Assembly: GCA_964035545.1 (NCBI GenBank) | Contig: OZ037765.1 | Coordinates: 30,988,004-31,052,003, forward strand | Direction: 5' to 3' | DNA length: 64,000 nucleotides | From: Bugula neritina | Taxonomy: Eukaryota > Bryozoa > Gymnolaemata > Cheilostomatida > Bugulidae | Shown: one piece after another, positions 20,271-50,000 of the stretch | Numbering within the stretch: the first letter of the stretch is position 1 | Layout: the number at the start of each line of letters is the position of its first letter | Made by a program: the position numbers and the translations under genes | The notes under the pieces: model-generated | Told to the model about the DNA's origin: nothing | Databases searched by the model: none | Seen by the model: only the letters and a program-made list of their open reading frames with translations

Positions 20271-23200
20271 ATGGAGGCAGGTACTGGAAAAGTAGATGAC
20301 TTGGCAGCTTTAGCCAAACTCACCGAGCAGACATTACTCAAAGAGCTGGAGTTACGATACGGTCAAGGACAGATTTATGCAAGTTTATTCTCCAAACTTA
20401 TTCATCCATTTCTGATTTACGATCTCTTTTGCTGCACAAATACTAAACATGCTTTCATAAAGTCGACATTTTTACTTCACTTATGCTCACATAATGTTAA
20501 TGTAATATAATATGTGTTTTAGACCTACATTGGTGATATTCTTGTCGCTGTGAATCCATTCCAGCAACTTCCCCTTTATGATTCCCAGGTACATTATTTA
20601 TATAAATGTTAATGTGATGAAACAAAATTGATTATTACTTATTGATGCTAGAATATAGAGCAACCTGTTCTGTATTTGGATTTCTTGTTGGTATACTTTC
20701 ATTCACACTTTGCTGTAAATTAGAATTTCCTAGTTTATTATAAAAATACATAAGCAGTCTCTATGCCAGCTATATTTACCTCTGCTGTTTTATGTATGAA
20801 CAGAGAAACACTGAGAGGGGGTTGATGTTGGGGGTACACTGAGTAGGGGGTTGATGTTGGGGGTAGACTGAGAAGGGGGTTGATATTAGGGGTATACTGA
20901 GTAGGGGGTTGATGTTGGGGGTATACTGAGTAGGGGGTTGATGTTGGGGGTATACTGAGTAGGGGGTTGATGTTGGGGGTATACTGAGTAGGGGGTTGAT
21001 GTTGGGGGTATACTGAGTAGGGGGTTGAGGTTGGGGGTATACTGAGTAGGGACTCCTAGTAGTTTATAGATCTCAGGAACACTAATGATTTTGTGTTGTG
21101 TTATACAAGATTGAAAATAAATCCTAAATTTAAATTCTGCACTTTGTCATTATTAGCCATCACCACAAAACTAGTAATTCATAAATATTGTCAACTGTAG
21201 TGAATGCTACAAGTTTGTTCTGCATTTGTAGATTTTACTTGTTAGAAAAATTCTGTCTATTATATTGTTATAGCAGTAGTATTTATACTTTATAAACAAT
21301 GTTATCTACTGGTATCTGTATGCAGAGGCCTGCATCAACTCTAGTGCACCTGCATTACATGTCCCTTACTACTGGCTATAGACTATAGAGTGTAGAATAT
21401 AGAGTATAGACTATAGAGTATAGAATATAGAGTATAGATTATATACTATAGAGTATAGAATATAGACTATAGAGTATAGACTATAGAGTATAGAGTAGTA
21501 CATAGAGTATAGGGTATAGAGTATAGAATATAGAGTATATAATATAGAGTATAGAATATAGAGTATAGAGTATAGTATATAGAGTATAGAATATAGACTA
21601 TAGAGTATAGAGTATAGATAGTGAGCATTCCTTGAAGTTACCAGGGTAGTAGTGTGCTGCTGCATAATTCCCCTCTATATGTATCTATTCTCTGTCCTTC
21701 CAGCTAAAAGAATCACGATAATAATGAAAAATGTGATTATTATTAAAAGATAAGCTAATTTATCTATTAGCTTTTCCATTGCCTTACTTTTTGGTAGTTA
21801 ATAACAATTCACATAGGCTGGATATATCATTTGCTTGAATTGCTAATAGTTAGTATTGCTAAACACCAAGAGGTTAAATTTGTTCTAAGATATTTGTTTT
21901 CGAATTACTTGCCAAATAAGTGTTAGCCAATCACCTGTGAAAGGTGCTGCCTCTGTCATTTCAAGTCAAAATATTACCACAGTATTATACATTGACATGA
22001 TGGCTCAGGTGCTTTTACTATACTTACATTCAAGATACATAGATAGAATGAATATACTTACGAATATACTTACACTCACTCACTTACTTACGAATGTACT
22101 TACACTCAGACACGTACAATAAATATACTTACAAATATAGTTACACTCACTCACTTACGAATGCACTTACACTCAGACACATATAATGAATATACTTAGA
22201 TTCAGACTGACTCTTGGTGAAGCATAGCAGGTGCACTAGCTTTTTGAAAATGATGAATAATTTTAATAGCTGAGGTGCATTTGTTACTTTTTGGGGGTTC
22301 AAATAAATATTAGCAATACTAATTCAATGACTCAAATATATCATATATTGATAACTCCACAATCATAAGAATGCAATGTATATATTATTATTATTATCGT
22401 GAACAAGTTATGCTGAAACACATGTATGTAAATTTCATTCAAATTTTATCCAGTGTGATTATTTAGTTTGTGTCATAAAATTTATTTTTCCATTTTAATA
22501 GTTGCCCGACATTACCAAAGTGTAAACTTATTTGTGCTGCCTTTGTTATAGCATTCAAAGGAATACAGAAATATAAAAGTCAAGTCGCAGTTAAAGCCAC
22601 ACATTTTTGCTGTTGCTGACTGTGTATACCAAGACCTGTTGACAAACAAGGAGCCTCAGTGTTGTGTAGTCAGTGGAGAATCTGGAGCAGGTCAGTAGCC
22701 TGTTTTGATTGCTGTTATAGACATCAGTGTTGTGACCAATGCTTAATATTGACACTCACTAAGTCGTAATATTTTATTCGATCTTCTCTTTCTTTCACTT
22801 GAATTAACCAAATGTGGCAATTTGACAAAAACATTTTCACAGTAAAAACTTAGGTTGTTCATGTTTGTTAATATTTAACACTCGTTTACAACCGCACCAC
22901 GTATGCAGTCAGGATGGCCGAGTGGTCTAAGGCGCCAGACTCAAGGCTTGCCTTTCATTGTGTCAATGAGTTAGTGTTCTGGTCCACGAATGTGGGCGTG
23001 GGTTCAAATCCCACTCCTGACAAATTTTTTTTTATAGTGTTCATGTTTTTACATACATGTGCATTTGGCTGTGTGTAACACAGCATCAGCTACACTTAAA
23101 TTTTTTGTTGTTTTTCAAGGAAAAACTGAAACAACCAAGCTGTTGGTTCGACAAATTGTTCAATTGTGCACAAAATCTGGCTCAGTGACTGCTAGCAGTA

Positions 23201-26200
23201 AGCTGCACGATGCACTTATTGAAATAAACCCTCTAATGGAGGCATTTGGAAATGCCCAGACTAAGATGAATGGCAATTCAAGTAGATTTGGAAAATATAT
23301 AGAGCTTCTGTTTTCAGACCAAGGAGAACTATTTGGAGGTAAAATTAGAATAATTTCTAACCGAATAGTAACATATATAAATGTCTGCAATATACTAGAT
23401 TTTCATTTCTGAAATCGGAAAATGCTTTTTATGCAATCATATCTTAACCATTGATTGGTTTTAAAGTCATAATTTTTAATTAACTTTAGGGCGGGTTAGT
23501 ATATTTCTGCTAGAAAAGACCAGAGTTACCGGTTTTAATAAGGAGGAGCAAAACTTTCACATATTCTATCATATGTTTGCTGGACTCAGTGAAAGACAGC
23601 GGACTAGTGTATTGCTCACTAACCCTGACCGTCATCGGTAAGTGTGTATATTAATAATATCATTTAGGTAGATAAGCGTAATATGTATAAAAGTGTAATA
23701 TGTAGAAAAGTGAAATATTTAAAAAAGTGAAATATGTAGAGCAGTGTAATATGTGAAGATGAGTGTAACATGTATAAAAGTGTAATATGTAGAAAATTTT
23801 ATTATGTAGAAAAATGTATTAGGTTCTTTTGATCTGCAGGTTATAGTTATATTTTAATTAGTAAAGAAATATAGTTTTTTTAAGACTATGTTAATATATG
23901 TAGCTAGTAAATTGCTTCTCTAAGAATATGTTATAGCTCAAGTAACTTCCTTATCAAATAACATGTGTATTTTATTGCTACAATAAAGAAGTTAAAGGTA
24001 TTATCAGGGTAACAAAAGAGTCGCTGTGCTTTGCTACAACTTTCTTATTTAAGGTACTCACTCTGTACCACCTTGTAATATACTATTATGATATAATATA
24101 ATCAGGGAGATGATATATAGTTTCTGTTACTATTTATAGAATCCTGAAGTCAGGTGACAGCTGTTCTATATTTACCAGCAAGGCTCACCAGCTTCACCAC
24201 AAAGCGATGTTCATCAAACTTCAGAAGATTTTGACCAATACTGGCTTTTTGCAAGAGGTGAAAATTTTCACCTTTTGGAATGTCTTGTAGACCATCGATT
24301 TTGATATTTCTTTTGTAGAATCTTAGATTGGCAAAATAAATTTTTTAGAATTTTTTCATTTGAGTTTAAAGTTATATAAAGTAAGTTTTAGAATGATATA
24401 TTGAGTAAGTCTGAAATGTTGCAAATACATACCATATTTTATCAATCTTTACAGGACTGTGAAATGATATATGCGTACCTATCAGCTATTCTACACCTCA
24501 CCGATATACAATTTGAACCTGACCAGGAAACTGATGGGGTTTTTATAACTGATGAATACCCCCTTCACGTCTGTAAGTATTTCTTGTATAATTAAGGGTC
24601 TCTTGTAGTTCCTCCCAACTTGATCTTCATTCAGTGTCAGTGAAGGATCTTTTGTTTAATTTCTATGGTTATCTAATAAATAAATCTAATGAATATTATG
24701 CTGTCATGTGATGAACAAGCATAAAGTGGAAAGAATTCACTATTGTACTATATGATATGTATGACTGGTATCTGCTAGCACCTGCTATCCAATTCCAAAC
24801 AGAAAATTGTTTCAAATTCTTTTTACATTGAATTTGGAAAAATATCTGTCGCGACATGTTTAGAGCTGAACAATAATCAAATTGTTGATTTATTTAAATG
24901 TTTACATTCTTTGTGTTTTTACATTAGCTACTGAGCTACTGGGCGTGTCTGCTGAAGAGATGGCCACCGCACTGATATCTAATGTACATTTAATTAGAGG
25001 TTTGTGAATATCATTACTCTAACAGTTAAATTTGAAAAAATCAGCCCTTCTTGATTAATTTCCTGAGTGTCTTGCATGTGATAAATATCTGCACAAGGCA
25101 GTTGGAATAAAATAAACACCCAATTTAGACAGCAACATTAGACACCAACTGGCATACGAGATCTGGATTTAAACAGATTAAATTTTTACAAATCTCATTG
25201 AAACCAGCTGCACACAGCTTTTAGTGACTGCTGAAGTAAAGGTATCACTATCTCTAGGCACTGTTGACTAAGCTAATAGGTGGACAAATTATTGTGTAAA
25301 TAATTATACTCTCTGTCAAATCTGCATTTGTAAGCAAAGGAATGTGAAGATGAAATAGCAATCCACTTGTGTACATATCTGTAAGGATATAATAATGATT
25401 TATGTAAGTTATATATCTTGGCAGAGGTTCTAATCATCTCTTAGTCATACTGCCAGGCCAGTTGGACAGGTTTATCAAGTTCAGTGAGTCATTTTGGGCA
25501 ATCTTGACAGATATGACAGTCTCTACCACAAAATGCAATATTTTAGCATAGACTATAAATTGTAGATTGACTAAAATAGAGTCGCACTGCCTAGCAATGA
25601 GAGCGGTGTATGTATCATTTCTAGGCATTAAAACAGGATGGGGCATATAACAGCTAGTAGAATATAAAGACTGTATTGTATTTCATGAATATAGATAGCT
25701 CTATCTTATTATAATTGGTCCTTTGTTTAAATGAAATTCCATGTATAAATACCAGAACACTGATGTAGGTATAAATTAGTAGTTTAGAAGACAGAAGGTT
25801 TTCACTCGCTGTCATTATGCTACCACGCTATTGGCTTCCTAGTCTATAATAAAGCGAATAGCATGCCTGGATAAATAACATAAACTGATTATACAAACAT
25901 GGACTTTGCCCTGACTCTAAATAAAGTATTAGGTAGTATTAGGTCGTAGAAGCTATCATGGATGACATCCAGTGAGAAATTTGCTGCACACATGTTCAAA
26001 CACTATTATTCTTATTTGTAAAGATGAGTTTAATAATTTTAAGTAATATTATAAAGCATACAATCACTTTATACACAGTCTAAGACAGAAACTTTACTTA
26101 TCAATAGTTTATTTAGAGCGTTTCACATAATAGAAAGGGTAGAGTGACTTTTTGCATACAGAATAATATAAAAACATTGTAAGGGTTTGCTTTAGGTTGG

Positions 26201-28046
26201 TAACTAAATATAAGATATTATTGATATTCAATAAACTCTTGCTTAGTATGAAGAGCAGTTTATAGTGTAAACATACTAAGTGGTGTTACAGTAGTTGTAT
26301 ATTACTAACTGCTGGTACTAACATGCCTGCAGGAAGTTGTAGCATACTAGACAGTGCATAGATGTTATCACCATGCATATTGGCCATTATATAGAGTTAT
26401 AGACTATGCCGTGTATAACTTGCACAAAGTAGCACATGCACGCACCTGCTGACTATCCTCAACTAGCAGTGTCAATCAACTAGTCAGCTGTTTAGTGTAT
26501 ACAAGCTGGTGTCATTAGGGTCACGATTTCCTGTTAAATGAAGGCTATTGTATTCTTGTCATGACCAGACTCTGCATTATATCACTCCATTGCTATTTAA
26601 GCTGGAATGTCAGAGTATTTCTACTGTTTATAGTATTTGATATGCTCCTAGTCCGTTTAGGTGCATTAACTGAGAAATTCCAATAGCCCAAGTTCTTTAA
26701 TTTGCTTTATAAAATTTCATTTGCTATATTTTTCATCTAGAACACAAGCTTTTTTCATTACTGCACCTACCCCTCCTAGTTTAACTGATTTCTAACTGGC
26801 CTATAGTTATATAATCGTGGATGCTGCATAGTTTTGACTTGCACTGTCACAATTTACTCTCTACTTTGTATTCAATCATGCTTGTAGTGAAACCTGATGA
26901 CATTTATGCAATTCTATACGATGTAGTGTCATGTTTTATTGCTATTATTAGCTACAATAAACGTAAAAAATGACTAATATCTTTTCTTTTAAAATTGCTT
27001 GTCATCCTATTTTAGGTGAAACAATTGTGAATCTGAAGAACTTAGTTCAAGCTGGTGATGGAAGAGACGCCTTAGCAAAAGCTCTCTATTCCAGATTATT
27101 TGGCTGGATTATCAGCAAAATTAATAACAAGTTGAAACCTGACCTCTCTTATGCGTAAGTGTCTGTTGGTATGGTAATCATATTATAATCTCTATTGAAA
27201 TACCATCAGATTTGCATGCAGTTGATTCATAGCAACATGTATATCTGCCCTAAACTTAGTTTTTAGAACAATTCATGTTACCAGATAAATTGTACTATCT
27301 AAGTTTAAGAGCATTTTTTCAAATGAAACCATTCCAACTGTGACTTATAATATCTGCCTGCAGGCTTTACATTATAAACAGAGCTGCGAATGAATTATAT
27401 TTGTTGAATTATGTTGAAATAATACTAGCTAAGCTTTCAGAGATAAAGCTTGAAACCAGAGTAACTACAAGAACACAAAGAGCCTTGTCAATTATAAATA
27501 TATACTTTTGATGTAGTATTAATGTGCTTTTGTGCTTTTATATTTCGTATATTGAAATATAGTAATAATATAATCAATATATAACATAATATAATCAATA
27601 TAATATATAACATAATATTGTCTCAGCTATGTACTTTTGACTGTAGGCCGAAGAAATCATCCTGCCCTGTTATTGGCTTACTGGATATCGCTGGTTTTGA
27701 GAATTTCACGTCTAATGGTTTTGAACAGCTCTGCATCAACGCATCCAATGAGCAGCTACAGCACTACTTCAATCAGCATGTCTTTGCATGGGAGAAGAGA
27801 GATCTGGACAAGGAGGGAGTTAAAACTAGTCACATTTCTTTCACTAATAACTCAGAAATCCTTGGCATGTTCATTGAGGTAATTCAAGCAGATTGGGCCA
27901 TATTTTAATATATCATAGTGTAATAATAATTGTTTGGAGCTATTTTTGTTGAGACACCCTGGTTAGTGAAAGTGCTACTACTACTGCTACTGCTACTGCT
28001 ACTACTACTACTACTACTACTGCTACTGCTACTGCTACTGCTACTG

Positions 28047-28135
<89 letters not shown>

Positions 28136-31100
28136 GTTACTAATACTACTTCTGCTACTACTACTGCTGCTACTACTGCTGCTGCTACTGCTGCTGCTAT
28201 TGCTACTAGTACTACTACTAATAGTACTACTACTGATAGTAATAGTGGTGGTAATTGTGATATATAGTAGGTGGTGGTACTGGAGGTAGTGATGCAATAT
28301 ACTTTTGGTGCTGCTCTTTATTGTAATGTTGCTGTTGTCTACTTGATATTGAAGAGACCCTTAGGACTCTACGCACTGATAGACGAGGAGAGCAAGTTCC
28401 CTAAGGCTACAGCTAACAGTTTACTGGAGAAGGTCAGGAAACACTTGGTTAAATATTCATGTATAAAAAAGGAGAAAGGAAGAGAACCCCTGTTTACTAT
28501 TCAACATTACGCTGGACCAGTATGTACTATTAAATCATATGCTGAAAACTGGGTCCAACTTTGTGGTCCCTCAATTGTATTATTTTGCCGGTAGTAATGT
28601 AATTCACTTGGTTAATTTGATCATTATTTGACATCACAATCCCTCAGTATTCATACATATTGTATGAGATTATTTAATATTTAATTTAAGCAGATTGTGG
28701 TGTTGTGTGAATAGTTGTGTGTACATTATCTAGTGGAATAGAGCTGTATTCACCAGGTGATAGAAGTAATCTAATGATTATTATGACTCTGAAATTAGTC
28801 CAAGTGGTTTGCCTAGCTTAATGAATATTGCATATACTATATGCAAATTACATGTTCTAAGATAATTAAGATCTGTTTTTACTACACATAACAGTTGCCT
28901 AATTTAATAGAATGTTTTCTAAAGTTATAATAGATAAATGGTAAATTTTCAAATTATTATACTATGCATGTAGTTACTAGTTATTACAATAATATATTAC
29001 ATAAACAATATGCACTATAGTGGATTTATCATATTCAAGTTTATTATACTTGGATCCTAATATACTTACTATATACTCACTATGTACATACTTACTATAT
29101 ACTCACTATATACTCACTATATACTTACTAAATACTTACTATATACTTACTATATACCAGTTGAACCTGCTATAAATTATCTGCATCCTCTGCCCACCAG
29201 GTCACCTACTCTGTCTCTGGGATGCTGGAAACTAACAGAGACACTCTCAGTCAGAACATTCTGGAATGTTTGGAGCGCAGCGAGTCTGGCATGATCTATC
29301 AGCTCTTTTCTGCTCGATTCTCTGATAATGGGGAGTTGTCCACACCGTAAGTTCATCAAAGATGGTATAAGTTTACAGTCTGAGGCAGACTCAAAGCTTT
29401 ATTAGCATGAGCACTTAATTTTCTACTCATGAAAATCTTTAAGCAACATCTTTTCCCTGTAGATACTTGAAAATATAAAAATAATTTAACTAGTAATGAA
29501 ATAGAATATACATTGTAGGGGTACACTGAATAAGATATAAATGTACATGTATCAGAGGTATAAGGTTATCTATCAAATGTTTTATATGTTACTACTATGC
29601 ATCATCACCAAGTAGTACTAGACAGCGGTAAGAGTTTATATAAACAGAATTTAGGTTGTATAGAAATGTGTTGCAATTATGTAGTCATATTACTTGATAA
29701 TTTGCCAGACCTTTACAACAGGGAAGCTACAGTAAGTATGTAAATACGTTGCTAAGTAAGCTACAGCAAATATTTAAATACATTACTAAGTAAGCTACAG
29801 TAAGTATGAAAAAAGTAAGTTGGTAAGTTAGAATTTTAGCTCGTACACAGGCAAAATATGTAACTCTACTAATAGTTATGGTATCTTTATAAAAACAATA
29901 TGAATCACAGTGTGGTGTTGACAAGTCAGGCCATAACATGTCTGCATGCTATGGTGAAACCCTGCAAGCTTGCTGCACAACATGTCTTACAGAACTGACA
30001 TGCATTCGTATCATTATCATACAGCAATGTGTGACCTACATCACTGTATGATGGAGGGAAACTTGTCATCATAAATTATAATATTTTTTTTAGTTATTTA
30101 TTAGTCTGTGACAGTAAACATCAAGGTCACAGATGATTGGATGATTTATAATCACGGTGACTGCTATTGGTTGAATACTTTTTTACACAAATTATTGCTA
30201 CTAACTCTTGTTTTAATAGTTTGTGCTTATTTTTTATGCTACTAATGCCAATATGATATTAAATTTACTGGTGAAATATGCTGTAGGAACCAGGAGCTAC
30301 GCAGAAAGAAGTCTATTCTGATGTGTAAGCAGCCGACGTTAGAAAGAGGAAAAAGTCTTTCGAAAACAGCTGGCAGAAAAGTTAGACAAAAGTAAGCATA
30401 ATTTTCTCTCAAAACCTCTATGACGAACTTCTTTTTCATTTTCACCTTTTTGATATAAGGTAAAACTATATTCAGGATACCGACATGTGGAGTGTTGATG
30501 TATTGATGCATTAGTAAAAGCTGTGATGGATTTTGTTGACCTCGCTACACTTGTGTTTTCACCAGCTGTTGCCATTTTGAACTGCTTTAAAGAGCTTTGA
30601 CTGCATCTTGATATTGTGAGGTTCAAACGTTCAGTTCATTGGTTGGTCTATCAATGAGATTTTTATTGAACTTTGCATAATTTTTTGTATGACTTGCAGC
30701 ATGAAGAGAGCGCTTAAAGAGATCCAAGATGATTCTTTTTATAAGCACAGGACTGTTGGCTCGCAGTTCCAGGTGAATTAATTTAAATATGTTTGAAGTC
30801 ATTGATTCTATTAAACTCTGTTATTAGGCGTTATCTTCTTTTGATATATTATAATGGATATTGCTAACTTTAATTAGTATATTCACAAATTAACAAATTA
30901 AATAAGAAATATCTACTTCTTATAATAGTGGCTATTTTTTAGTTATTTGAGAGATTGTTTTGAAAATCCAGGTCTGCATAACAAAAATGGTTTTGTATTA
31001 TCTTAAATTTAGGAGATGGATTGCAGCAAAATTTTTGAATGTTCATCACCATAGGAGTTACTTTCTCATGTTGTAAGCTTTGTTTCTAGGATTCCCTGAC

Positions 31101-34100
31101 TGCTCTGATGACTAAGCTAATGCAATGCCAGCCTCATTTTATTAGATGCATCAAACCTAACAACTCACAGGCTAGTCAGTTGTTTGAGAGGAAACTGGTT
31201 GCCCAGCAACTGCGATACACTGGCATCTTAGAGACTGTAAGGATAAGACACGAAGGGTTTCCCGTCCGTCTGCCATTTCAAGTATTTCTAGACCGGTTCG
31301 TAGTTTTCACTTTCCAATTTCAAACTCGTTGAGGTTAATTGTGTAAAATTTTCAAAATTTTGAACAAATCTGTGTTTTAATTTTCATTTATTGCTTTATT
31401 CTTAGTCTTAGCCATATTTTACTGTAAAAACTTGTCTCATTGTTAGTGTACACATGTGGTTGTATTAAGAGCAAAACGCTTTATAGGTTATATGGGATTT
31501 ATCTTCTCTTGTGATCAACCACTAATCTTCATTATTAATGTTAGCAAATTTTTTTCTCTTAGGTACAAGTTCGTAAGTTATCCTCTCACAGCAAAAGTGG
31601 AGGCGGGGACTGCTGCATGCCACACGGTATTAAGAGAAGCTGGTCTCCACAAGTGGGAGCTGGGCACTAGGAAGGTTGGCAGTTTTACCATCCCATCATT
31701 TCTTTCTAAGATGTGTTAATATATTATATTGCGTGGCTTTCACCTTGGCGTAATAAACTTATGTATTAATTGACTCAACTTTTAGGAAGATTTCCTACAG
31801 GTAGGAAATCTGAAAGCGCCCTTAGTTTGGCTGATTGTTTCTGATATTGCTAGTTGATGCTTTTTTTCTAAATTTTGCGCATACACATGTCTTTAAAACT
31901 TGAAATATTTTATATTGAACAAGTTTGCAAATAAATTTGCTTTGCATTATTGTGAATTATTTATAGTAATGTAGTCTTTTTTCTCATTATTTGTTTTTTT
32001 TTTGTCATTTTTCATTGTTTGTTATTTAATATATGTAAATATTTCAGGTGTTCCTAAGGTACTGGCACCCGGAGCAGCTGAAACTGGTGATGGAGAGGAG
32101 GGTGAGGCAGGTTGTGCTGGTGCAGAGTCTAGTCAGAAGGTTCATAGGATGCAGGAAAGTGCAGCAACTCCGTCAAATACTTGAGGCGAGAAAACAAGCT
32201 CAAACGAAGTCCTTCCTCATGATGGTGGCAGAACGGAGTCAGCAAATGCACGCTGACTTGAAAGAATTACATAACCTGGATGTGACTAAACACAAGCAGA
32301 ATGTAAGATATGTGTAACACTAATAAAGTGTGTATGATGTAGACTAACGCATTGAAATTGGGTGACTTTTCATTTTGATGCAGTTGAATTATTTTGATTT
32401 CAAATGTGAGACAATAGCTGTAAAATTATAAGTGCATTTATTTGAAATGCCTAGTATTGCAAATATAATAGTATATTACATGATAAAACTGCTTCAATAC
32501 AGTTTATATTTTACTGATAAACGCATGTTACAGTTTATAAGGCTGCGTAGAATTACAAAAAAATTTGCTAATTCTGTATATCACTGACTTGAACTGAAGT
32601 GCCTGAAGAATTCAAGTTTTTTAAATATTAATATATACATTTTTTATGGATACATCAGTTTGACTTAATGTAATAATTCATTAAATTAGGCAATGTGCTG
32701 TTCAAATTCAGTTACCTTTTATACAACTATCTATAATATACGTATGTATACATGCACAATATACAGTATACATATACTAGATATTTCTAATGCCAATATT
32801 ATTCACTGCCAAATGTTTAGTTAAATGACTTGGCGAGGGAGGCTGGAGAGTCTAAAATTCGTGAGCAAATGATTGAAGAGAAAAGACGAAAGTTAGCCTT
32901 AGCCGAAGCGGAGCGGGAGAAGAAAGCTGCTGAACTAAGGCTGGCCGAGGCTCAGAAGCGAATACAAGAATTAGAAACAACTCGTAAAGTAGAAACTCCT
33001 TCTTCCATTAGTTCTTCATCTTCAAGGTTGGGGTTGAAACAGTAATTTTATAATATTACTTTGCATTCGGTTCAATAAATGCGCCTTTTTTATAAGAATG
33101 ATGATATGACAACTCCAGAATTAACACCCAAATATGTCATTTGACTACACATGTAATGCTACTTCAGCTGATCTCAAACCATTATGTTTCTGCAGTGGGT
33201 TTGAAGATGATCTTCCTTCACCTGAGTTGAGTAACGAGGAGCCTAAACACACGTGGCGTAAGCAGAGAGCCAACCATAAAGATCACGTGGCTGGACTCCG
33301 GAATCTTCTGGAATCGAAGGCAGAACCACCTGAACAGGAGAATGTGAGACTCAATAAACAAAAATGGGTACCAATCAATGAAAGACTGTACGCCACACCG
33401 GTTTGTCATTATGTTTAGTTAAATTTTGATTATTATAGGCTAAAAATGGGATTAAACCATTGCATTTAATTTGAACTTTAACTTGCTTTTTGTTGCATTT
33501 GTGAGTTTTGATAGAGTCAGAAGTGATTAGTTTCCATTTAATATTCAAATTTAGACTTTTGATGATCATTTTCATTGTTCCCAAATTGGCTACTCTTGTA
33601 TATCTTTATCATGGACATATTGGTACCTATTTCATATTTGTAAACAATGTTTTGTCAGAGGTGCCAAATATGATCTCAACTTTTTAAATCCTGGCCTTCT
33701 GAAAGCAAATTCAAATTTAATTAATATTTCCTCAAAATGCAAATTAAATTTTTTATGTAGTAGTGTGCATGATGAAAATTAGGTACTGAAATATCTGTCC
33801 AGCTGTTATAAATCCGCTTAAAAGAGACATGGTCATTTTTGATAAAAATGTAAATCAGTCAAGTTTTACTATCTCATAAAGCTATAAATCTGAAAACAGC
33901 TCCAAGCATAATAATGTTGGCACCCCTGTATTTTGCATTTGTTTATTTCAGGCATGTCCTTATGGCGTTGCTAGAAAGTCTCCAGCAAGACCCCTTCATT
34001 TACGAAGGTAAGTTTTTAGTTATACCGAAAATTTCACTCCTAACAAAAAAAGTTCAGAGAATGTTTATTTAAATAATATACTAAGTTGCTTTGGAGTTTT

Positions 34101-37100
34101 ACCATTAACTGCACTCAAATGAGTGGATTTTAGAAGTTTTGAAGAATTCTAGAATTCCATTATAAGTAGTATTGTGAGGTTGCTCTAACATTTGGTGATT
34201 ATACCTCCAAATTTTTTCGAATAATGTTTTTCAATTTTTCAAGACATTAAATGTTATACTACACTGTCAGTAGTGTTTGGGTATGACAAGAATATTTAGT
34301 AAGGAGTTAGTTATATCATTGGAACACATGAATGCTTTTTATTTTAGCATCTTTTCAGACCCTAGTCATGGTCAGGTCTATGATCCTGAGAATGTATCTC
34401 ATTACGCCAGACAATCAAGTCACAGCAAGATATTAGTCAACAAAGTGGAACACTATAATGTAAGTGTTATTCTCTTGTATTTACAGGTGTATTGTCATTA
34501 TAAAGCTGTATGTACACCTATGAAACTGTACGTACACCTATGAAACTGTACGTACACATATGAAACTGTATGTACACATATGAAACTGTACGTACACATA
34601 TGAAACTGTATGTACACATGAAACTGTATGTACACATATGAAATTTTATGTACCCTTGTGAAGTTGTATGTACCCTTGTACCCTTTTATGTACACATATA
34701 AACTTGCATATGCGTGTGTTAAATTGTCTGTACCCAGGAAATTGTATGTACACATATGTAAGTATGTACATGTATGAAGTAGTATGTACAAATACCAAGG
34801 CATGTCTACATGGGTAGCTATTCCTTGCGATAATAGTATTGTCACTAAATTATATATCTTTTACAAATAGACTGTGTTTCATTGTTTTTTTCTGCTTTTT
34901 AGGGACTAATTCAGGAAGCGTTACAAAGTGAATCAGAAACCCAGAATAAAAGCAATTGGGGAAAACTTGTATATATGGAGAAATCTCAAAGGTTAGTGTA
35001 CAAGTTATACTATCATGCAAAACTACTGCATATTTCAGCTACAGAATGTATTATTATGAAATTAATGAACAAAATTTTTGAAGGTTACCCTTTATTAAGA
35101 TTTGCTGATAATATAAAAATTATATAATACATTTGTATTTCAATATTCAGCTTATAAATAATTCACACAATAATACTTTTGATCTTTATTTCTGATTTAC
35201 CTTTTTAGTATTAGTTTTTTAAATACCATAATGCTTTGGTAATCGTGGTAAAGCAACTGTTGTGAACATTGTTTTATCTGTGAAAAATCTAGATATGAAA
35301 CTTTGTTATTCTAAAGTTTTTGTCTCTTGCTTAAATTTTGCCTCGGACGCAATTGAACCCAATAGTTTGACTGTTCATTATCTGCATAGCTGTTTCTTTC
35401 ACTTACAGGTGTGCAAGCTTCATTCTAACTGAGCCAGTTATAAAGGTAGATGGAGCACACTACTCCTCTGACCCTTCTAATCATGTGGCTTTAAACTCCG
35501 TTGAAAATTTATTTCGAGACGAGCAAGTTGGAAAAATAAGAGAATACATCGGGAAGGTAAATTTCAAACTACTGGTATTAGTTGAAATATGAATATAATG
35601 AAATATTGAAAATATAAAAATAAATAAATGAATGTTATAAATACATAAATATTATGAATATGGAGTATTATAAAGGAATACATTTACTAGTCAGATTTGG
35701 TAAATTGATTGTAAAAGAAGCGAGCTAATTACTAGCCACTTGCTGGTTTGATGTTTTTTTACGTGCCTTTGGCTAACTGATACTTATATGCTTGTATTAT
35801 ATTGTAATGGGTGACATGCATGTTGTTTTGTACATTATTTAGGGCATGCAACTCCAAATAGACACCGAAGGTGACATATGGGCCAAGAAACTAGGAATGA
35901 ATGACATAATAGTTCAAGATCACAATGATCCGTCATTGAGTTGTATATCAGAAGAGGTTATTAAAGATAGAGGGAGGTTGCAGAAGGATAAGAGGGTTAA
36001 GGTAATCTTAGACTCCTGTAGCTTCAGTTAAAATTTATGCTAAAATAACTAGATTGATTTGATTTGTTTAAAACTTGCTTGTCAAGCTAAATTTACGCTG
36101 ACATTAGTCTGATGAACTAGGGACTGTAGTTAGCAGCATTGATGATAATCATAGGTTAAGGTAGAATGACTTATGTAGGTATGTAATTTAATGAAGGAAT
36201 GTATTTACGTTTATTCAAATTTGCAGATTTTTGTATAATTGTCATGCTTTTATTTTATATTTAATTTTTTTGTAGATTTTTGATATGAAAGAATTTCGGA
36301 GTCATGTGATCTTGGAAATGCACAAGGCAGGATTAGGCAGAATAAATCTTAAAGATCTTTATTCTCGTTGCTGCATTGTATCCTTGACATTGGTGAAGTC
36401 TTCGATAGATATTATGGAAACGCCATGTTGGATCAACATAATAAACTTAGGAGCTCTTCGAATGTTAAGAGATGAAAATGGTAGGTCATTAGTCAACGTG
36501 AATAAAACATATACAGCAATATTTTCAATTGTCAAATTATTTCAATTTATGATGTTAACATTTCAGTTATGGCAGACTTTGAAAATGAGTTGAAGAAAAT
36601 CATGAGGTCAAACATTGACTTCACCAAGATTAGTCAACTGGTAAGAACTCTCTTACAACTACAGTTATCGCTTGTTGCAATATTTTAGGCAAATTCATAA
36701 TGTTTTACTTTTGTTTCCTTAATATGCGGTTAGAATATTTTATAGCCTCCAATTGCTAAACAAAAGCCGAAGAAAACAGATAAAAAAAAGGAAAAACTAC
36801 CTCAACGAAAAGATCAAGAAGCAGGCAAGGTCTTTGGTTAGTTGGTTTTTAAAATTATCGAGTAATAAGAGTGTTCTTACATAAATAACTCTGCAAAATT
36901 CTACAATGCTGCAAAAATCGGAACTACAAGTCTTATCGTGAAATATTGGAAGAGTCTCTTGAAATTCACCTTCTGTTCCGTGTTATTGTTATGATTATTA
37001 TCAGTTTGCGTCGCAGATTATAATTCTTAGCTTCATGCAAGTTGCAATATGTTTGCTTTCACATAAAAAAAAAATATTTATAACAATTCAAACAATATTT

Positions 37101-37286
37101 TTGCTAATTTTCATCCAATTTAAATATTTTTGAAAACTAAGATTGATTGTATGACTTTCTGTTTGTTCAGTCCTGCCTGAGCCTGTACTGGATAGAGCAT
37201 CAAAGCCGGTCGGTGATTTCCAATTCAAAAGTCCTAGGAAGTGGGCCAAGTTAAAACAGAATAGCGTGAGCCAACTAACCGAGTAG
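20271..37286 (+). CDS. Unconventional myosin with C-terminal SMAD-like MH2 domain
   Basis: Twenty-eight exons give 1289 aa with every phase consistent: 20271-20378, 20523-20588, 22552-22690, 23120-23338, 23490-23637, 24140-24257, 24455-24572, 24928-24999, 27016-27154, 27647-27878, 28355-28519, 29201-29346, 30287-30391, 30700-30772, 31090-31295, 31563-31674, 32048-32302, 32821-33026, 33196-33400, 33952-34007, 34348-34459, 34903-34991, 35409-35556, 35843-36001, 36276-36480, 36567-36640, 36746-36824, 37171-37286. The product is an actin-based ATP motor. P-loop GESGAGKT is at 100-107, switch I NGNSSRFGK at 155-163 and switch II DIAGFE at 389-394. A basic loop-2-like insert (558-600), the actin-site block QCQPHFIRCIKPN and converter RKVFLRYW follow. 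After the motor come an IQ-like segment (about 744-763), a charged helix (808-865), a polar linker, an MH2-like domain (1019-1200) and a Lys-rich tail. The motor looks closest to class III, without the kinase; class is unresolved. Introns 1 and 27 start with GC. The second GC donor is less certain. Confidence 0.92.
20810..21050 (+). repeat. G-rich 29-bp minisatellite in myosin intron 2
   Basis: About eight copies of a 29-bp unit of the form actgagtagggggttgatgt + tgggggtat, with few differences between copies. Each unit carries two G5 runs on the sense strand, so the array holds about sixteen G runs separated by 8-11 bases. Not coding. Confidence 0.92.
21375..21622. repeat. TATAGA-type AT-rich tandem array in myosin intron 2
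   Basis: Repeated steps such as tatagagtatagaatatag. It yields a false Tyr/Ser/Leu-rich frame on the minus strand. Parts (tatagactatagag) are near-palindromic. Confidence 0.85.
22040..22200. repeat. ACTTACACTCACTC-type degenerate tandem repeat in myosin intron 2
   Basis: About three to four diverged units built from cttacactcactcacttac and gaatatacttac. Simple sequence, no gene. Confidence 0.65.
22908..23022 (+). tRNA. tRNA-Leu (anticodon CAA) with intron
   Basis: Acceptor stem gtcagga pairs with tcctgac. The D-arm contains the A box tggccgagtggtc. The anticodon stem ccaga/tctgg frames loop ctcaag...t with anticodon CAA at 22942-22944. The T arm is gtggg-ttcaaat-cccac. The anticodon loop is interrupted after position 37 by a 31-nt intron (22946-22976), the canonical place for tRNA introns and typical for tRNA-Leu(CAA) in animals. 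A long variable arm fits a type II tRNA. A T-run follows the gene (23026 onwards), serving as a pol III terminator. It sits in sense inside intron 3 of the myosin gene. Confidence 0.93.
23680..23830. repeat. Diverged 17-18-bp tandem repeat in myosin intron 5
   Basis: About eight imperfect units around gtgtaatatgtagaaaa follow each other shortly after exon 5. No coding potential. Confidence 0.7.
27972..28250 (+). repeat. Long CTA/CTG trinucleotide repeat in myosin intron 10
   Basis: About 280 bp of CTA and CTG triplets, with a pure CTA block of roughly 85 bp near 28047-28133 flanked by CTG-interrupted blocks and a degenerate TAC/TAG tail. It lies between the exons ending at 27878 and starting at 28355. 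It produces meaningless poly-Leu (plus) and poly-Ser (minus) frames. Confidence 0.93.
29055..29160. repeat. TATACTCAC/TATACTTAC tandem repeat in myosin intron 11
   Basis: About nine 10-12-bp steps (ctatatactcac, ctatatacttac) just before exon 12 at 29201. Simple sequence. Confidence 0.75.
34495..34770. repeat. 20-bp tandem repeat in myosin intron 21
   Basis: Units of about 20 bp around gtacacatatgaaactgtat, near-perfect at the left and decaying to the right. Each unit contains gtac and catatg palindromic cores. The minus-strand frame here is an artefact of the repeat. Confidence 0.85.
34903..36480 (+). other. MH2-like domain region of the myosin tail (four exons)
   Basis: The exons at 34903-34991, 35409-35556, 35843-36001 and 36276-36480 encode residues about 1019-1200 of the myosin. 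By eye this region follows the SMAD MH2 order. It has a Trp and Tyr at the start (WGKLVYME), then EPVIKVDG with DPSNH. EYIGKGMQL sits where SMADs have HIGRGVRL. DIIVQD follows, then KIFDMKEF (SMAD KIFNNQEF), the Cys block followed by LTLVK (SMAD MSFVKGW), and ETPCWINI (SMAD STPCWIEI) followed by a short helix. MH2 domains are protein-interaction modules of TGF-beta transducers. Here the C-terminal SSxS phospho-acceptor is absent and a Lys-rich tail follows. Homology rests on visual alignment; a profile search was not run. Confidence 0.8.
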
Positions 37287-37643: not shown

Positions 37644-40600
37644 TCATGAGTTGGTGAACACAAAGGTGGACCAGCCACCACACTTGACAGACTTAAACTT
37701 AGTGTTGGTTGCAGTGTACAAGTTAGGTCTGTCCTGGACTATCACATCCTTTGGTAGTAATAACTGTCCATAGCCATTCCATCCCCAGGAATATAGTTTG
37801 CCATCACCTGTGACAGAATGTGGGCATTACTATGTGGTGCTACTATTAGCAAGTATATAGGCTATGTGGTGTATACATATATTTCAGAATATGATGTTCT
37901 AAAGTTATCCGTGCATTTCTGTAAGTAACAAGTCACACATTTTTTAATAGCAAACTGAGATGTGAGCATATTTTAAAGTATTGCTAACACATAGTATGCT
38001 GCCATTTTATAATATTTGAACTAAGACATGAAAAATGCCATATTTGTGGATAAAATGGCCTCTTTTTAACTCTATCATTTAACTATATACTACTCTGCTA
38101 CTACATTCAGTTTTTCATTTCCAATAATGAGAAAAATAAATTAATACTAACTCGTCACGGCCGCAGAGTGTCGCGAACCACAGGATATGCTAGTAATAGT
38201 GATGTCACAGTTGTCTTCAAACAACAAACTGGGATACATAATCATGCTGTGACCAACTCTGTCACCACACTGAGGTTCACCATGAGAGTCCTTCAGGCAA
38301 GGCTTCCCAACTTGACCACTCTCATTCCAACCCCAACTGTACACATCTCCTGTATCTAAACAATAGAGTATAGACCTCATCAGAAGGCATGACAGGATTC
38401 AAAGAGTGGTGTGAGTGACATCTAGTTTAACATGTGACCTTTTCAAGCAACTTAGTAATAAATGAAAACATGTAATCTTATTATAATTGTTGTGTTTTAA
38501 GTGTATAGAGATATTTATTGTCGAAGACTGAAAGAAAGTAGCAATGTGAAAAAGGTTATATCATAAGTTATAAGTTTCAAGTTACAAGTGTGAGACGCAA
38601 GTGTAGATAAGTGAAAAATGGGGGGCGGGTTTATACTAGTCAAATAGGTTAGCTTTTGTGTAGTAGCTATAATAAATGTGGAAAAAGCATAATATAGCTG
38701 GCCTAGCTGAGATATGTGAAAAGCTATCATGCATTAGGGAAAAGCTTTCCCAGCTTATGTAAAGTCCCAACAATCATTTTACATACTCAATAAAATAAAC
38801 TGTGAAATGTTTGACAACTTTAAAATTTATACAGTATTGAATTATTCATGTTTACATTATTGAAGCTATTCTAATACTTGTTTCAAGTTAAATAAGATAT
38901 AGTAACACGTATTACTTGCCGCTAATCACCATTTAACAGGACTATTGCAATCAAAGTGTTCTGCAAAGTCAATTTAGATCCTGCTAACTCTGTTTCTTTT
39001 CAAATCTTAACTTCACCAAACATATTGCAAGTTTAAAGTTTCAATCCAGAAAATGCAGCTTATTTTAACCAGAATTTTCTTTCTGATCTATTATAAACAC
39101 CAACTGTTAAGACATACCACTTAATACTAGAGTATGCCATCCCCCAGCAACTGCGTCTACAATGAATACTCCAGAGAGGGCTTCAACAAGTCTAGGTTCA
39201 GTCAAAGACTCCAGATCTCCGTGTCCAAGCTGGCCTCGGCTATCGAGATTAATTATATTTTAAATGAGAAGGAAAGTTCTCAATTAGGAGAAAGAAATTA
39301 AACTTTTTTATCACAAAATGAGAAAAGTTACAAAAGAAACCTATTGCTGGTTACGCCCAGCTACACAAGTATAATATTTGTCCTACTAATCAGTATGTGA
39401 TGACTAAATTTCCTGTTTTAATCATGTAAAGCAAAGATTTCCAGTTAACTCAAGTCTTGTTGATAAATGTAGCTGACAAAAGTCCCAAAACTATCCTCTC
39501 CTTTATGGTGAAAAAAAACTTTCATTATTTAAAAAATAATGTAAAAAGCAACAAATAGTTATTTGATCAAATTAAATTACTGGCACCCTGTCCATACAGC
39601 ATGCCTGTAAACATCTAGTGTTGAAAATAAAGTTAATTGCAAACCTTTTCTAAATACAAGCACTGCATTACATGACAAGAGGTTGCAGGTGTGACCTGGA
39701 ATGAGAGCACCTGGTCTACATGCTCTTATGTTTTACAGCTTCAACATAGTGAAGCATTTAAGGAAAGAATATGAGTTCTCAGTCCCCAGTGGCCTTGGAG
39801 ATGAAGGCTGTACATAGTGCCTAAGTATTCATTATTTATCAGTACTAACCTTCCTCCACCAAACGTATAGACATGCCCAAGTGTAGTCAATATGACTACA
39901 TGCTCTTTACCACAAGAGACACGTCGTACCTTTATATTTGACAACAGAATCTTCTCTGGCTGAGCAGTGGATAAGTTGGACAAAGTCCATAAAGATCCCA
40001 CATCTAGCAAATAAGTTTTCTGGTTAGATTAGCACAATTTTTACAATAAAAACTCAAAACTGACAGCAATAACTAACCAATACAACAATAAAATATACTT
40101 AATTTAACATAAATTGATAAAAAAACTACAGCTATTAATTTTAAATTATAATGTAGAGTTAACACTAGCTAGCAGTTATTTGATTGAATCTATATTGTGT
40201 TAAAAAGTGTGATTCAATACATTTCTTAATGGTCCTTGATGATGGCACGAAGGGTATTTAATGAAGGGTTTTTTTAGTTACTTAATGAAAATTTAAATCT
40301 GACTGTACATGCTCAAAGTAAGAAAAGCACATCATATTTTTTCAGATGAAAGAAATTTCTCTGTAGCTCCTAACACAAGAGAGGATGTGTTGAATAACTT
40401 GAATGGGCACCTGGCTTTTCATTAGGTTTGAAATATATGAGAAAAAAATCATTGAAATAACAAATAATACCTGTATAAAAATAGAGCGATTTATCTGTAC
40501 AAGACAATCCTTGTATGTACTCAGGTAGGTTCAGTTCCACTACATCTAATTTACAGCTACTTTCTCCAGCTTCAAGGTCTTTGAAACATAGCAGAGTGGA

Positions 40601-44064: not shown

Positions 44065-47000
44065 ATGAAGCCTCAGGGAGGTGAACACCCCCTCACAGTG
44101 AGTTTACTAGTTAAAAATTGACCAAGTTGACTAACTTTTTTAACATAAATTGTTTTACATTTTTTCTAAAATTTAAAGTTCTGTTTGGACATTGCTAAAC
44201 TCTTATGTTGTAACATCAGTATGTGTAGCCTGTGATTCTATTAAACAGGTTGCGGTGAGGGTGAGGCCAATGACGGAACATGAGATTTTGTCAGGTTGTA
44301 CACAAGTTGCCCATACGGTGGACAACCAGGTTTGTTGAAAACATTTTTTTATTTAACAATTATGTGCTTTAATTTCTTTTTCATAAATCAACTGCTTGTC
44401 ATTTTCTAATATAAGTGTGTTTCTAAACAGCTTTGCTAGTTTTATTACTAAACTTGGCAAAAGTGAATTGCTGCTTTATGCATTTTAAAATTGAAAAAGA
44501 AAATGTTGGAATCGTTGTTTATGGTTTTCTGTTGAAAGTTATGTTTTGTATATCATCAGATGGTGGTGCTGCTGGACCCTACGGAGGACCCTGATGATAT
44601 CCTTAGAGTGAATCGCTCCAGAGAAAGAAGATACATGTTTGATCACGCCTTCAACGATATTGCTGACCAGGTATAGCCACTGGCAGCGTAGAACCAGCAC
44701 TTCTCTTATTTATCTTAAGCTAATATTAGTATAGAAGTTGTATTGCTACAAACTAAGCCAATCTATCATATAAATGGCAGGCTGATAGTGTTTTGTTTGC
44801 TCAACAATTGGCTCTAATGACTGTTGTGGAAATATAATATATCTTTAATGAGAAAGTCTACTTGACATAATTAAATGTTTGCAGCCTGTTGCTGTCACGT
44901 ATTATGAGAAATTATGTTGCGTATTTGAGGCAGCGTCAGCACCTATTTCGTCTTCTCAACAAATGGAATTGCATTGTCTGTGAACAATTATTGAATATTG
45001 ATATTAATTAGCAGTTGTTTATTTGTTTATTTCTCCATGGTGCTCTTGTCTTACTATTGTTACAAATAACAATGTGCCTTGCTCTGCACAGCTCATAGCT
45101 GTCACCATCGTATTATACTTAGTTAATTACTTGATCCTATTACGCCACTGGTTCACACAAAGTTCATATTTTCACATGCTATCAGAGGCAGTGAAATAAG
45201 ACCATATATGATGCCTTATGATGAGCTATTGCTATTGCTATTGCAGTGCTAGCTTCTTATTTCTGATTTATTCTTCAAAGTTTCATAGTCTAATGTTTTA
45301 CCTACTTTAGGAGGAGGTGTACCAAGTCACTACTCGATTTCTCATTGACCAAGTTATAAATGGATATAATGGAACCGTGTTTGCATACGGAGCTACTGGT
45401 ATGTATCATGTTTGTGCCACACTCATTTCTAATAACTGCAATAATTGTATCTTTACTAATCCTCTTATTTATTGGTTACTATTTAAGTCAATGAAATATT
45501 GCAAGATTTATTATGCCATATTATACAAAATTTGAGTTTATTTGTTCTATAACCAAAGTTAAGACATATTAGGCTGTATACTTGATGAATATCAAGTCTG
45601 TGTTTATGTGTATACTTACAGTATTACACTATTATACCTATACATGCTGAAAGCGTAGTGTTGTTTGCAAAACTCATATTAAATATTCTCATACATTGAA
45701 TATCCCAGGTGCTGGAAAAACATACACAATGCTGGGCACTCAGGATAATCCTGGTATATACTCGAGAGCTCTCAACGATCTCTTCTTGCTTGTTGCTAAA
45801 TATGAAGAGGAAAATATATACAATGTGTCTATGTCATACTTAGAGGTTTGTTTGTACTATGGAGATGAGAACTCATAACTTCTGTATATTATAGGATTTA
45901 GGATTTGATTTTCTAGGAATTGCTTGACTTTAGCCATGTGCTGGTCTGTGTATGTTTGTCTGTGTAACCACTTGAAGTGGCCATCTCTTGGTTACTAATA
46001 ACTTGTTTATTTATATAAATAAATTATCAAGAAATTAGATAATGTCAAGCAGCTAAAATTTATTCTAGTATTTCAATGCATCATGACACAGTTTCTTGCC
46101 GGGCTGATTAATTGAAGTCCTGGGCATTTAGTTGGTTGGCTGTGTTTGAGCCAAAAGACATTTTGAACTACATGTTTTCATGTTTATTAAGCAAAGAAAT
46201 GTATTTATTTATTTATTCTTGTTTTCTAATCACCAACAAGACTTATTGATGGACCTTGACATGTTTGCAGATTTACAATGAAATGGTGAGGGATTTATTG
46301 AACCCATCTTCAGGCTATTTGGAGATGAGAGAAGATGCAAAGGGTGGGGTGCAAGTAGCCAGCCTTTCTGAAGTGTCAACAGCATCAACTGAGGAGGTGA
46401 GGCTATGCTCACAGCTTGTAACAGTTTAATTAGTTTTTTAGTTCTTTTACCATCCAGCGAGTCTAGCATCTATTTTTAGAAAGTTTATAATTTACTAAAT
46501 CTATCTAATATAAAAATAGTAGGCTAGGTATATATAGTAAAAAAATCCTAACATATACATGCGCACGCTCACAATACCACAATATAAATAAACATCATGA
46601 CAGAAAAGAGAAAAAAATGTCATATCAATTCTATCTGTAGAGTTGAATGACGCCTGAATGTAATTTCTTATATTATATAATATTTTTATAATGTACAAAA
46701 AGTTATATTACTTAGAATTAGAAAGTTTTAGGCTTTCTAGCAACACAAACAGGTGTAGAAAATCTTTAAGTAATTTTATTCGTAATCTTATAATGTTTTT
46801 CATGCAGCAATTATACTTATTATAGCATGCAGGGTGAATGTTTGAACATATCTTCATTGTAATAATTCTGTCTAGACACACAATCTGTATAATGAAACAT
46901 TTGCCATTTAGATGCAGGTTTTTGTCAGGTTGCTGTAAATTTAGTATTAATTTTTGTTTTAAGATATACAATTGCTTTGCATACTTATTAAAATCTACAG

Positions 47001-50000
47001 ATCAGACTTGCAGGTGTTTTTGTGAAAGGCTGCCCAGCTTTGTTCAGGTATAAAGTCAATATTTCTGAACAAAAGGCAGCTATGCTAATAAGTCTATAGG
47101 CAGCAATAAACATGCCCCATAAAACCTTTATGAATAATTAGTTGACTTTGAAAAAGACCGAAAGACACACAACTTTTCTGTGAAATAATAATCCAGGTAG
47201 GCTAAAACAATATTCATTGTTAAAATGTAGATAATGGAGCTGCTACAGCAGGGTAATATGGAACGAACCCAGGAACCTACCAAAGCTAATCAAACGTCAT
47301 CGCGTTCCCATGCCGTGCTCCAAGTTACCGTCAAGCAGAGAACTCGGGCTAGGGGCATCAATTCACAGGTAGCACTTGGAGTTGTTAGTAGAAGTTTATT
47401 TACTTAAAAATCTAATAAAATGAATGAAAGTTTAGGTTTAAGGCTTACCCCCTATTCACACTTACCGTATTGTTCGCCGTAACAGCAGATATCAGCCATT
47501 TTTACAAATGTCTGAGCTTCCTGTACGGTATTGCGGTACGGTAGGATCAAGCACTGCTTGATTAAAAAATGTTGCGGCGAACTCCTATTGGACAGAAAAA
47601 CTTTTGCGTTAATTCATTGTATATAATTGTCCAATGAAGTGTGATAGATCGTACCTAATAGCGGACATTGAGAACTTCAGCCCGGACACATTAAAAATGG
47701 CTGATATTTGCTGTTATGGCGTACGATACGGTAAGTGTGAATAGGGGGTCATTATAAATAATAACTTGAAGAGAGTTGAAGTGGTTACACTAGGATTTAT
47801 CATCATATACTTCCTTTGATACAGCTCTCTGTATTTTACTCAAAGAGATTAATAGAGTATATTTACAAACCTGACTTTTATTGTTTGAAGCTGATCAAGG
47901 AAATTAAAACAAACTAACAATGTTTGCTGCCTGCTGCTATATGTGGGTGTTGTGTTATGAGAACTGAATGGTGCTGCTGTTTTAGTTAAAACTATTTTTA
48001 TTGTGGCGAACAATTTCTTGTGTTAGTTCAGTCATCTTGAGTTCAATTTAACAATTATAATTGATAGTTTTGTGCAACATAATTCAACCTTCCAAAAGCT
48101 TTATATGTTATTGTAAATTGCAACTTTGTTTTGTGGTTTTGACTAAAAAGAAGCTAATGGTTATAATTTTTAATAAATTATACTTCAAGAATTTGCTACT
48201 AAATATTTTGCTCCGCTTTGTTAAACTATAACACTAAATAAACAGTTGCAGTACCTATACATATACCTATACTACATAAACTAGATACACCATGTGTGTT
48301 ATTATGCTGCCGCAGGTGAAGGTTGGCCGTCTCTTCCTCGTAGACCTGGCAGGCTCCGAGCGAGCTGCCAATACTCAGAACAGAGGGAAAAGGATGGTGG
48401 AAGGAGCTCATATTAATCGTTCTCTTTTGGCTCTGGGCAACTGCATTACAGCCCTGAGTAGGTTTATTTCAGTGTTCATAATATCCTAAGGCTATACATG
48501 AAGTTGATTCTACATGACGCTGTATTACGCTGGTCTAGTTTTCCCCACGAGTATAAAACAATGCGCTATGTTTAGAATTGCTTGTCACTTTCCTCCATCT
48601 AAAAGTACAGCATGAGTTTCAATGAAGGGCGAGGCATGGAGCTACCTGTGACATTGCGTAAACCTGGGTCTACTTTGCTTCCTCTCAGCTGTTCTATGTC
48701 ATCCGTTTACTCTGGGGGCATTTTTAAGAATACATACAATGCATATTTTGTTATTTGAACTTTTAGCCATCCTTGACAATTGGCATTCATGCAGACAAAA
48801 CTGATTCCTGTGAGAGAATATATTCGATATGAACTATGGTCATAGCTAGCTTTAATTCTTATTGTGTTGTAATAATGTTCAGTCAATTTCAAGCATTTTT
48901 ACTTGTTTTGTGTGTTAAATGTTGCAGCATGTAACATAATTTAAAGTATCTTTTTAATTTGTAATATTGGTCGAGTTTAATTCTGTAGTTATACATATTA
49001 TAATGAATACATTGTTTAATTATATGGTTATATATGTTGGTTGAACTGAGAGTCTATGTACATGCCTAGTGAATATCTTGTGGTGTGTTCGTAGGTGAGA
49101 GTAGTGACAAAGGTGCTAGAACTTACGTAAACTTTAGAGACAGTAAACTCACACGTCTGCTAAAGGATGCACTCGGTGGTAACTGTAAAACTGTCATGAT
49201 TGCCCACCTTGGACCTGCTAGCTTTCACTTTGAAGAGTCTAGAAATACCCTGCTATACGCCGACAGGGCAAAAAGAATAAAAAACAAAGTAAGTTTGTGG
49301 GTCCTAGCCGGTCGCATATCACTTTTCTAAAAAATAAATGCTTTTCACAGGTTATTTGTAGTGTTATGTTGAAGGTCCTGTCACAGCCAGTAGTAAATGT
49401 GAAAGGTTCTGTTGACATTTTCACTTTTTGATGTTTTCATTTTTTTATTACCTAATCACAAAATTAGAATATCTGTTTATGCAAATAGCTTATTGAAAAG
49501 AAAATTTTAGAATCTGCACAAAGTATTTTTATTTGATATTTTTGTTTATTGCTGATGCTTCTGAGGTGTTTTATGCGGGTTTTTAAAACCAAGAAAAAAG
49601 TTGGCAAAATTCAGTTACTGAGTGAAATGCTTCTAGCTGCATTCTTTGTCACTAATAAATCTTCTAACTTTCTTAGAATGGTTCAGAAATTGTAAAGCCA
49701 AGGCTCTAGAAATTGAATTATTTATTTCTTGAAAATATTGCTTAGAATACTTGCTATGTAGTATAATTTTCTTGTCAAATCGTATTATTGTCGTCACTTT
49801 GCAAGCTGTAAACTGGGAGGTTTCAACTGATAAACAAATTACCTGAGGTGAACGCATTGACCTGCTATGATACAAAGTCAAATGGTATACAATGAATAGA
49901 GTGTCACTATCTGCAGGCATCATTGTATCAATATGTGAACGGGTCAGCGATTTCAAAAGTATTGATTGTAGAAGAACTATCTAGTGCAGTGGGATGTCAC

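Follow-up and report, generated by a model that had tools for sequence, protein, structure and literature searches.

Introduction

Myosins with an MH2 domain in the tail have been reported in two surveys. In the first, III-like myosins with a C-terminal MH2 were described in the choanoflagellate Salpingoeca rosetta and the sponge Oscarella carmela, their MH2 was related to that of the Smads, and it was suggested that MH2 arose first on myosins (Sebé-Pedrós 2014, PMC3942036). In the second, class-80 myosins of the Ambulacraria with MH2 were described, together with lophotrochozoan orphans that share this layout; the motors of these orphans are polyphyletic and are grouped together with the class-36 chitin-synthase myosins or next to them (Kollmar 2017, PMC5583752). 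The phyla with this layout include molluscs and annelids (PMC5583752). The domain is named MH2/DWB there, and the accessible text of the survey contains no link to the protein Expansion and no occurrence of bryozoans (PMC5583752). Here and below, statements on cited papers refer to their accessible text. Herein, a myosin gene with an MH2 tail was analyzed in the bryozoan Bugula neritina. The gene is located at 20271-37286 (+) of a 64,000-nucleotide stretch of contig OZ037765.1 (positions 30,988,004 to 31,052,003), called the window, in a genome of 215.8 Mb. Its tail is very probably not of the Smad type and belongs with Expansion.

Expansion (Exp/Reb) is needed in Drosophila for the extracellular release of chitin together with the chitin synthase Kkv. 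One model for this release assumes an unknown "Factor X" (PMC9894549).

The gene encodes a complete myosin motor and an MH2 tail

The gene was rebuilt from the window sequence as 28 exons. All introns are GT-AG except intron 1, which is GC-AG. The phases are consistent across the exon chain, and the frame is unbroken from ATG to TAG, with 1293 codons plus stop. An earlier note on this DNA, made from the letters alone, had read the locus as one phase-consistent exon chain with a full motor, and the rebuilt gene agrees with it. The 1289-aa product given in that note has to be revised. It is consistent with an alternative donor at 36824, and the product of 1293 amino acids (aa) is favored because the four extra residues have counterparts in another Bugula neritina protein record, P0001.

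The motor domain is encoded by exons 1-16 (aa 1-722, 20271-31674, +). The Pfam profile Myosin_head (PF00063) is matched completely, from 1 to 679 of 679, by residues 8-726 (E 7.5e-192), the final few of which are encoded by exon 17. The nucleotide-binding motifs are present, with the P-loop GESGAGKT at aa 100, switch I at aa 155 and switch II LLDIAGFE at aa 387. The TEDS-site residue is presumably the acidic E331. The closest solved motors, among the best 60 of 151 PDB matches, are those of myosins VIIa, X and XV, which act in actin protrusions.

The neck and a charged stretch follow in exons 17-18 (aa 723-875, 32048-33026, +). One degenerate, weak IQ-like motif was read by eye at aa 747, and no IQ motif was matched by Pfam at E 0.01. 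The E/K/R-rich stretch at about aa 808-865 is taken to be helical, and a serine-rich linker lies between it and the tail. The MH2 domain is encoded by exons 22-25 (aa 1018-1189, 34954-36446, +). The profile check proposed in the earlier note confirmed it, with PF03166 matching at E 6.2e-25 and 88.9 bits (cut-off 25). Besides Myosin_head and MH2, the Pfam scan at E 0.01 gave only a sub-threshold AAA match.

Motor and tail occur together in related proteins

Three relatives were found by a full-length search of protein collections, and three more by tail alignment. Three other records are annotated with the fusion of motor and MH2: P0001 of Bugula neritina, P0002 of Sinanodonta woodiana and P0003 of Potamilus streckersoni. 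The two mussel proteins show this combination in other invertebrates. The Bugula record is partial, and its model skips exons 22-23, at the MH2. In a further record, P0004, an unbroken 583-aa frame runs from the last part of a motor into an MH2, and its contig is no longer than 2,419 bases. From the unbroken frame, this contig probably represents a spliced transcript.

The window protein is 92.5-97.5% identical to P0001 by region. Identical residues number 397 of 409 aligned in the motor, 233 of 243 in the neck and the linker between the domains, 118 of 121 in the MH2 (62 residues are absent from the P0001 model) and 86 of 93 at the C-terminus. A separate MH2 gene is opposed by the three annotated fusions, the unbroken frame of P0004 and the neck and linker match to P0001. 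The motor and the MH2 tail form a single gene. Compared with the two mussels, the motor is 44-45% identical (312/687 and 316/717 aligned residues) and the MH2 39-40% (70/178 and 71/178), while the neck and linker reach 22-26% of the aligning part (24/111 and 32/121). Because of this difference, the motor and the MH2 both appear constrained, and the linker much less.

By domain layout, the window gene is a bryozoan member of the MH2-tailed myosins, that is, of the class-80 myosins and lophotrochozoan orphans. It carries the C-terminal MH2 on a myosin, and the two mussel counterparts and the one Bugula counterpart share this layout. The C-terminal MH2 is also common to the Salpingoeca and Oscarella myosins, which were compared by description only. 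A new architecture was rejected, as motor plus MH2 was published in 2014 (PMC3942036) and 2017 (PMC5583752); the suspicion of the earlier note that it might already be catalogued was right. The class-36 myosins of molluscs, annelids and rotifers are the reported nearest motors of the lophotrochozoan orphans (PMC5583752). Their tail is an integral-membrane chitin synthase, whereas the window tail is an MH2, and no chitin synthase was found in the window product by Pfam scan.

The tail resembles Expansion more than the Smads

The top PDB match of the tail is 4r9p, Expansion. Significant Smad matches were also obtained. By sequence, profile and tree, the tail scored higher with Exp than with the Smads used for comparison; the profile sets were of unequal size and diversity, so that these profile scores are indicative only. 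In a whole-genome reverse search, the only Exp-type domain found was that of the window gene. For the modelled folds of the tail's relatives, Exp again scored above the Smads used. Among these relatives, the mussel tail P0003 shares 70 of 201 residues with the fly Exp P0009.

In the tree, the myosin-type and Exp domains were split from the Smads with a support of 100/100. The split was retained in three variants (100/100, 100/99 and 100/100), all of which include the window row, one of the long branches that the tree program flagged as meeting the Smads. The tree holds six myosin-type rows, two of which (P0005 and P0006) are myosin-type by tail sequence only. P0001, whose model lacks two MH2 exons, and P0050, missed by the start pattern, were left out. 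Ten of 11 picked Exp proteins were used, from 120 listed and 541 found. The species-named Exp proteins among those listed are from insects, and nematode and crustacean Exp stand outside the tree.

Two local features follow the same division. The L3 loop has 13-14 residues in 16/16 myosin-type and Exp rows versus 19 in 8/8 Smad rows, a shortening by 5-6 residues. The window has 13, and the loop with its flanks reads VKSSIDIMETPCW (36393-36431, +). The motif IFDMKEF at the start of exon 25 (36276-36296, +) is of the IFD[MT]/LFDM type, which was found in 16/16 myosin-type and Exp rows and 0/8 Smad rows. A third feature is the counterpart of the N-terminal (Nα) helix of Expansion. In the window it was placed by alignment alone, through conserved W, K and YME residues, at about aa 997-1014 (34448-34944, +), where the junction of exons 21 and 22 divides it. 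In the relatives this helix aligns with Exp and is helical in the structure models of P0006, which is fair within the domain (mean predicted local distance difference test score, pLDDT, 61.0 overall), and of P0004, which is poor (mean pLDDT 43.8).

The PDB match, the reverse search, the models of the relatives, the tree split, the L3 loop and the aligned Nα helix together indicate that the tail is very probably an Expansion/Rebuf-type Nα-MH2, nearer to Exp than to the Smads. A Smad-type tail was rejected on tree, L3 loop and profile. The superfamily and the fold are shared with the Smads. No MH1 domain was found in the window product by Pfam scan at E 0.01, and about 100 residues follow the MH2, ending in QLTE and not in the SXS motif of Smads. 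Of the SMAD-type MH2 tail claimed in the earlier note, the MH2 fold is retained and the SMAD type is not, by sequence, profile, tree and L3 loop. The landmarks cited for it mark MH2 domains of any kind; KIFDMKEF and the short stretch that precedes TPCW have the Exp-like form. The statement that MH2 is otherwise associated with SMADs does not hold for this tail, which belongs with the non-Smad Nα-MH2 family of Expansion and Rebuf.

No published link between Exp and myosin was found in the literature searched, in which few subscription journals were within reach. The word "myosin" is absent from the main text of three Exp papers (PMC4388265, PMC9894549 and PMC4305360).

The whole protein is distinct from Expansion

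The short L3 loop and the IFDM/LFDM motif are common to the window tail and Expansion/Rebuf (PDB 4r9p), and the Nα helix of the latter has an aligned counterpart in the window. The proteins around these domains differ. The listed Exp proteins have no motor, and nearly all of them carry CM2, the apical-localisation motif of Exp. The exact core DPYYCGL occurs in 109 of the 120 listed, and of the remaining 11, 10 have a close variant. CM2 is missing from 7/7 myosin-type sequences. These carry instead, after the MH2, the motif W[SA]K[LVFI], found in 7/7 sequences and twice in 5/7; in the window it appears as the C-terminal RKWAKL (37236-37253, +). In Exp this motif gave one match among 119 anchored of the 120 listed proteins, located in the Nα helix of the second Exp copy in P0007; a stricter anchor, covering 111/120 proteins, gave 0. 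The idea that the C-terminal W[SA]K[LVFI] motifs are a disguised CM2 was rejected, as the two differ. The Nα-MH2 of the window also stands near the C-terminus instead of the N-terminus and is joined to a motor. By its L3 loop and tree grouping the domain belongs with the Nα-MH2 domains, but the whole protein is not an Exp, as CM2 is absent and W[SA]K[LVFI] is present.

Proposed function and alternatives

Bryozoan cuticle contains chitin. We infer, tentatively and at a little less than an even chance, that the MH2-myosin is an actin-based carrier or anchor of an apical chitin-synthesis complex. The motor would walk on, or hold to, apical actin, and at the apical membrane the Nα-MH2 tail would carry, cluster or license the machinery for chitin synthesis. 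By placing the complex at apical actin the motor may substitute for CM2, while the Nα-MH2 may recruit a factor that opens or clusters the synthase. Motor and Nα-MH2 are in one protein, and the chitin synthase would be a separate partner. The window myosin would thereby do with a built-in motor what insect Exp/Reb do without one. The chitin role itself is held with a confidence that is close to, and at best about, even.

The genome was searched for chitin synthase. PF03142 exons were found at five places (C5:11498852, C4:12356794, C3:9217327, C3:3411787 and C8:12519435), the last of which is under the Pfam cut-off (25.1 bits). EDRWL and QRRRW, the latter a chitin synthase signature, occur near each of them. 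A motor-chitin synthase fusion in this genome was rejected, as no motor was detectable in the 40 kb upstream of each of the five places. A tblastn search with the window and mussel motors as queries, covering 200 kb upstream of the five places, gave nothing at E 1e-3, and at E 10 the mussel motor gave only two chance-level matches; as a control, 10 pieces of the window gene were recovered with the mussel motor at E 1e-3. Among the 95 motor matches in the genome, obtained with 65 of 130 candidates scored, C3, C5 and C8 have none, and on C4 more than 3.9 Mb separate the C4 place from the closest match.

Several points weigh against the chitin role. No motor exon was found in the 40 kb upstream of the five places, and so no direct fusion in this genome supports the link. 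PF03142 is not specific, since it matches 4/14 control genomes, all bacterial, and one of the PF03142 exons matched only hyaluronan synthase in PDB, weakly (E 0.001). The absence of CM2 from the myosin-type sequences counts here as well. The Nα-MH2 has no known partner even in flies (PMC9894549). The original role need not be chitin, because ambulacrarians and a choanoflagellate also have MH2-myosins (PMC3942036, PMC5583752).

The main rival is a general cargo or signalling adaptor, in which the Exp-type tail is a protein-binding module for cargo that has nothing to do with chitin, such as complexes of receptors or kinases in microvilli or filopodia. It is quite possible, somewhat short of even. 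That the tail acts as a partner-binding adaptor, as the earlier note proposed, is probably right. The resemblance of the motor to myosins VIIa, X and XV, the protrusion myosins named above, and the lack of CM2 fit such cargo. So do the many signalling domains on the choanoflagellate III-like myosins (PMC3942036) and the connection of Exp with signalling by receptor tyrosine kinases, which is cited in PMC4388265. An adaptor of this kind leaves unexplained the reported grouping of the motors with chitin-synthase myosins (PMC5583752), and why the only Exp-type domain found in the genome sits on this myosin.

A Smad-type adaptor that links actin transport to transforming growth factor beta (TGF-beta) receptors or Smads is highly unlikely, although the MH2 fold and the significant Smad matches speak for it. 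The L3 loop, the phospho-residue and receptor contact of Smads, is shortened as in Exp, and in Exp the Smad trimer face is covered by the Nα helix (PMC4388265). TGF-beta signals are not transduced by Exp in flies, and the tail goes with Exp by tree, by profile and by the modelled folds of its relatives. Least probable is an annotation artefact, in which two genes, one for a motor and one for an MH2 protein, are read through as one; the gene model does rest on genomic sequence and two exons at the MH2 are left out of the B. neritina record P0001, but this reading was rejected and is already nearly refuted by the fusion records, the P0004 frame across the junction, the neck and linker match, the consistent phases and the two surveys that report the architecture (PMC3942036, PMC5583752).

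As to the origin of Exp, the Smad-rooted main tree placed it inside the myosin-type MH2s, weakly (87/81), and monophyly of the myosin-type MH2s was not rejected (approximately unbiased test, p-AU 0.165). MH2-myosins could be the ancestral form of Exp/Reb, as actin motors that carry an Nα-MH2 and would deliver and license chitin synthase, with some lophotrochozoans having fused a related motor to chitin synthase (class-36) and ecdysozoans having lost the motor and retained only the Nα-MH2 as Exp/Reb. This scenario is speculative and rather unlikely.

Gene neighborhood and other observations

Intron 3 of the myosin gene holds a tRNA-like gene with an apparent intron at 22908-23022 (+) (Rfam RF00005, 52.1 bits), which was not listed by ARAGORN in bacterial mode. 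Intron 10 contains a long CTA/TAC trinucleotide repeat at about 27980-28200. Directly after the gene lies an RCC1-repeat protein (37644-40028, -), and beyond it a kinesin (45651-49327, +), both identified by Pfam in single exons. A second myosin gene is located about 54 kb upstream of the window gene on the opposite strand (C1:30942319-30954054, -). Its motor exons are about 30% identical to the window motor and presumably represent a conventional myosin II.

Contigs C90, C114 and C115 gave myosin-like matches in frames with many TAG and TAA and no TGA, as in ciliate-type codes; the frame on C115 contains 14 TAG and 30 TAA. In view of these codons, the three contigs may stem from a contaminant or a symbiont.

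Implications

The architecture of motor plus MH2 was known, and the new element is which MH2 it carries, in all probability an Exp-type Nα-MH2. The window MH2-myosin would thereby leave the Smad frame that was used for such proteins in the 2014 survey (PMC3942036). The question of the origin of MH2, with the myosin first and the Smad later, could be decided by adding Exp sequences. The likeness to Exp suggests a connection of actin motors with chitin production that can be tested. With an Exp-type domain on an actin motor, in a group whose motors reportedly stand beside the chitin-synthase myosins, actin-based placement of chitin synthase becomes a concrete hypothesis.

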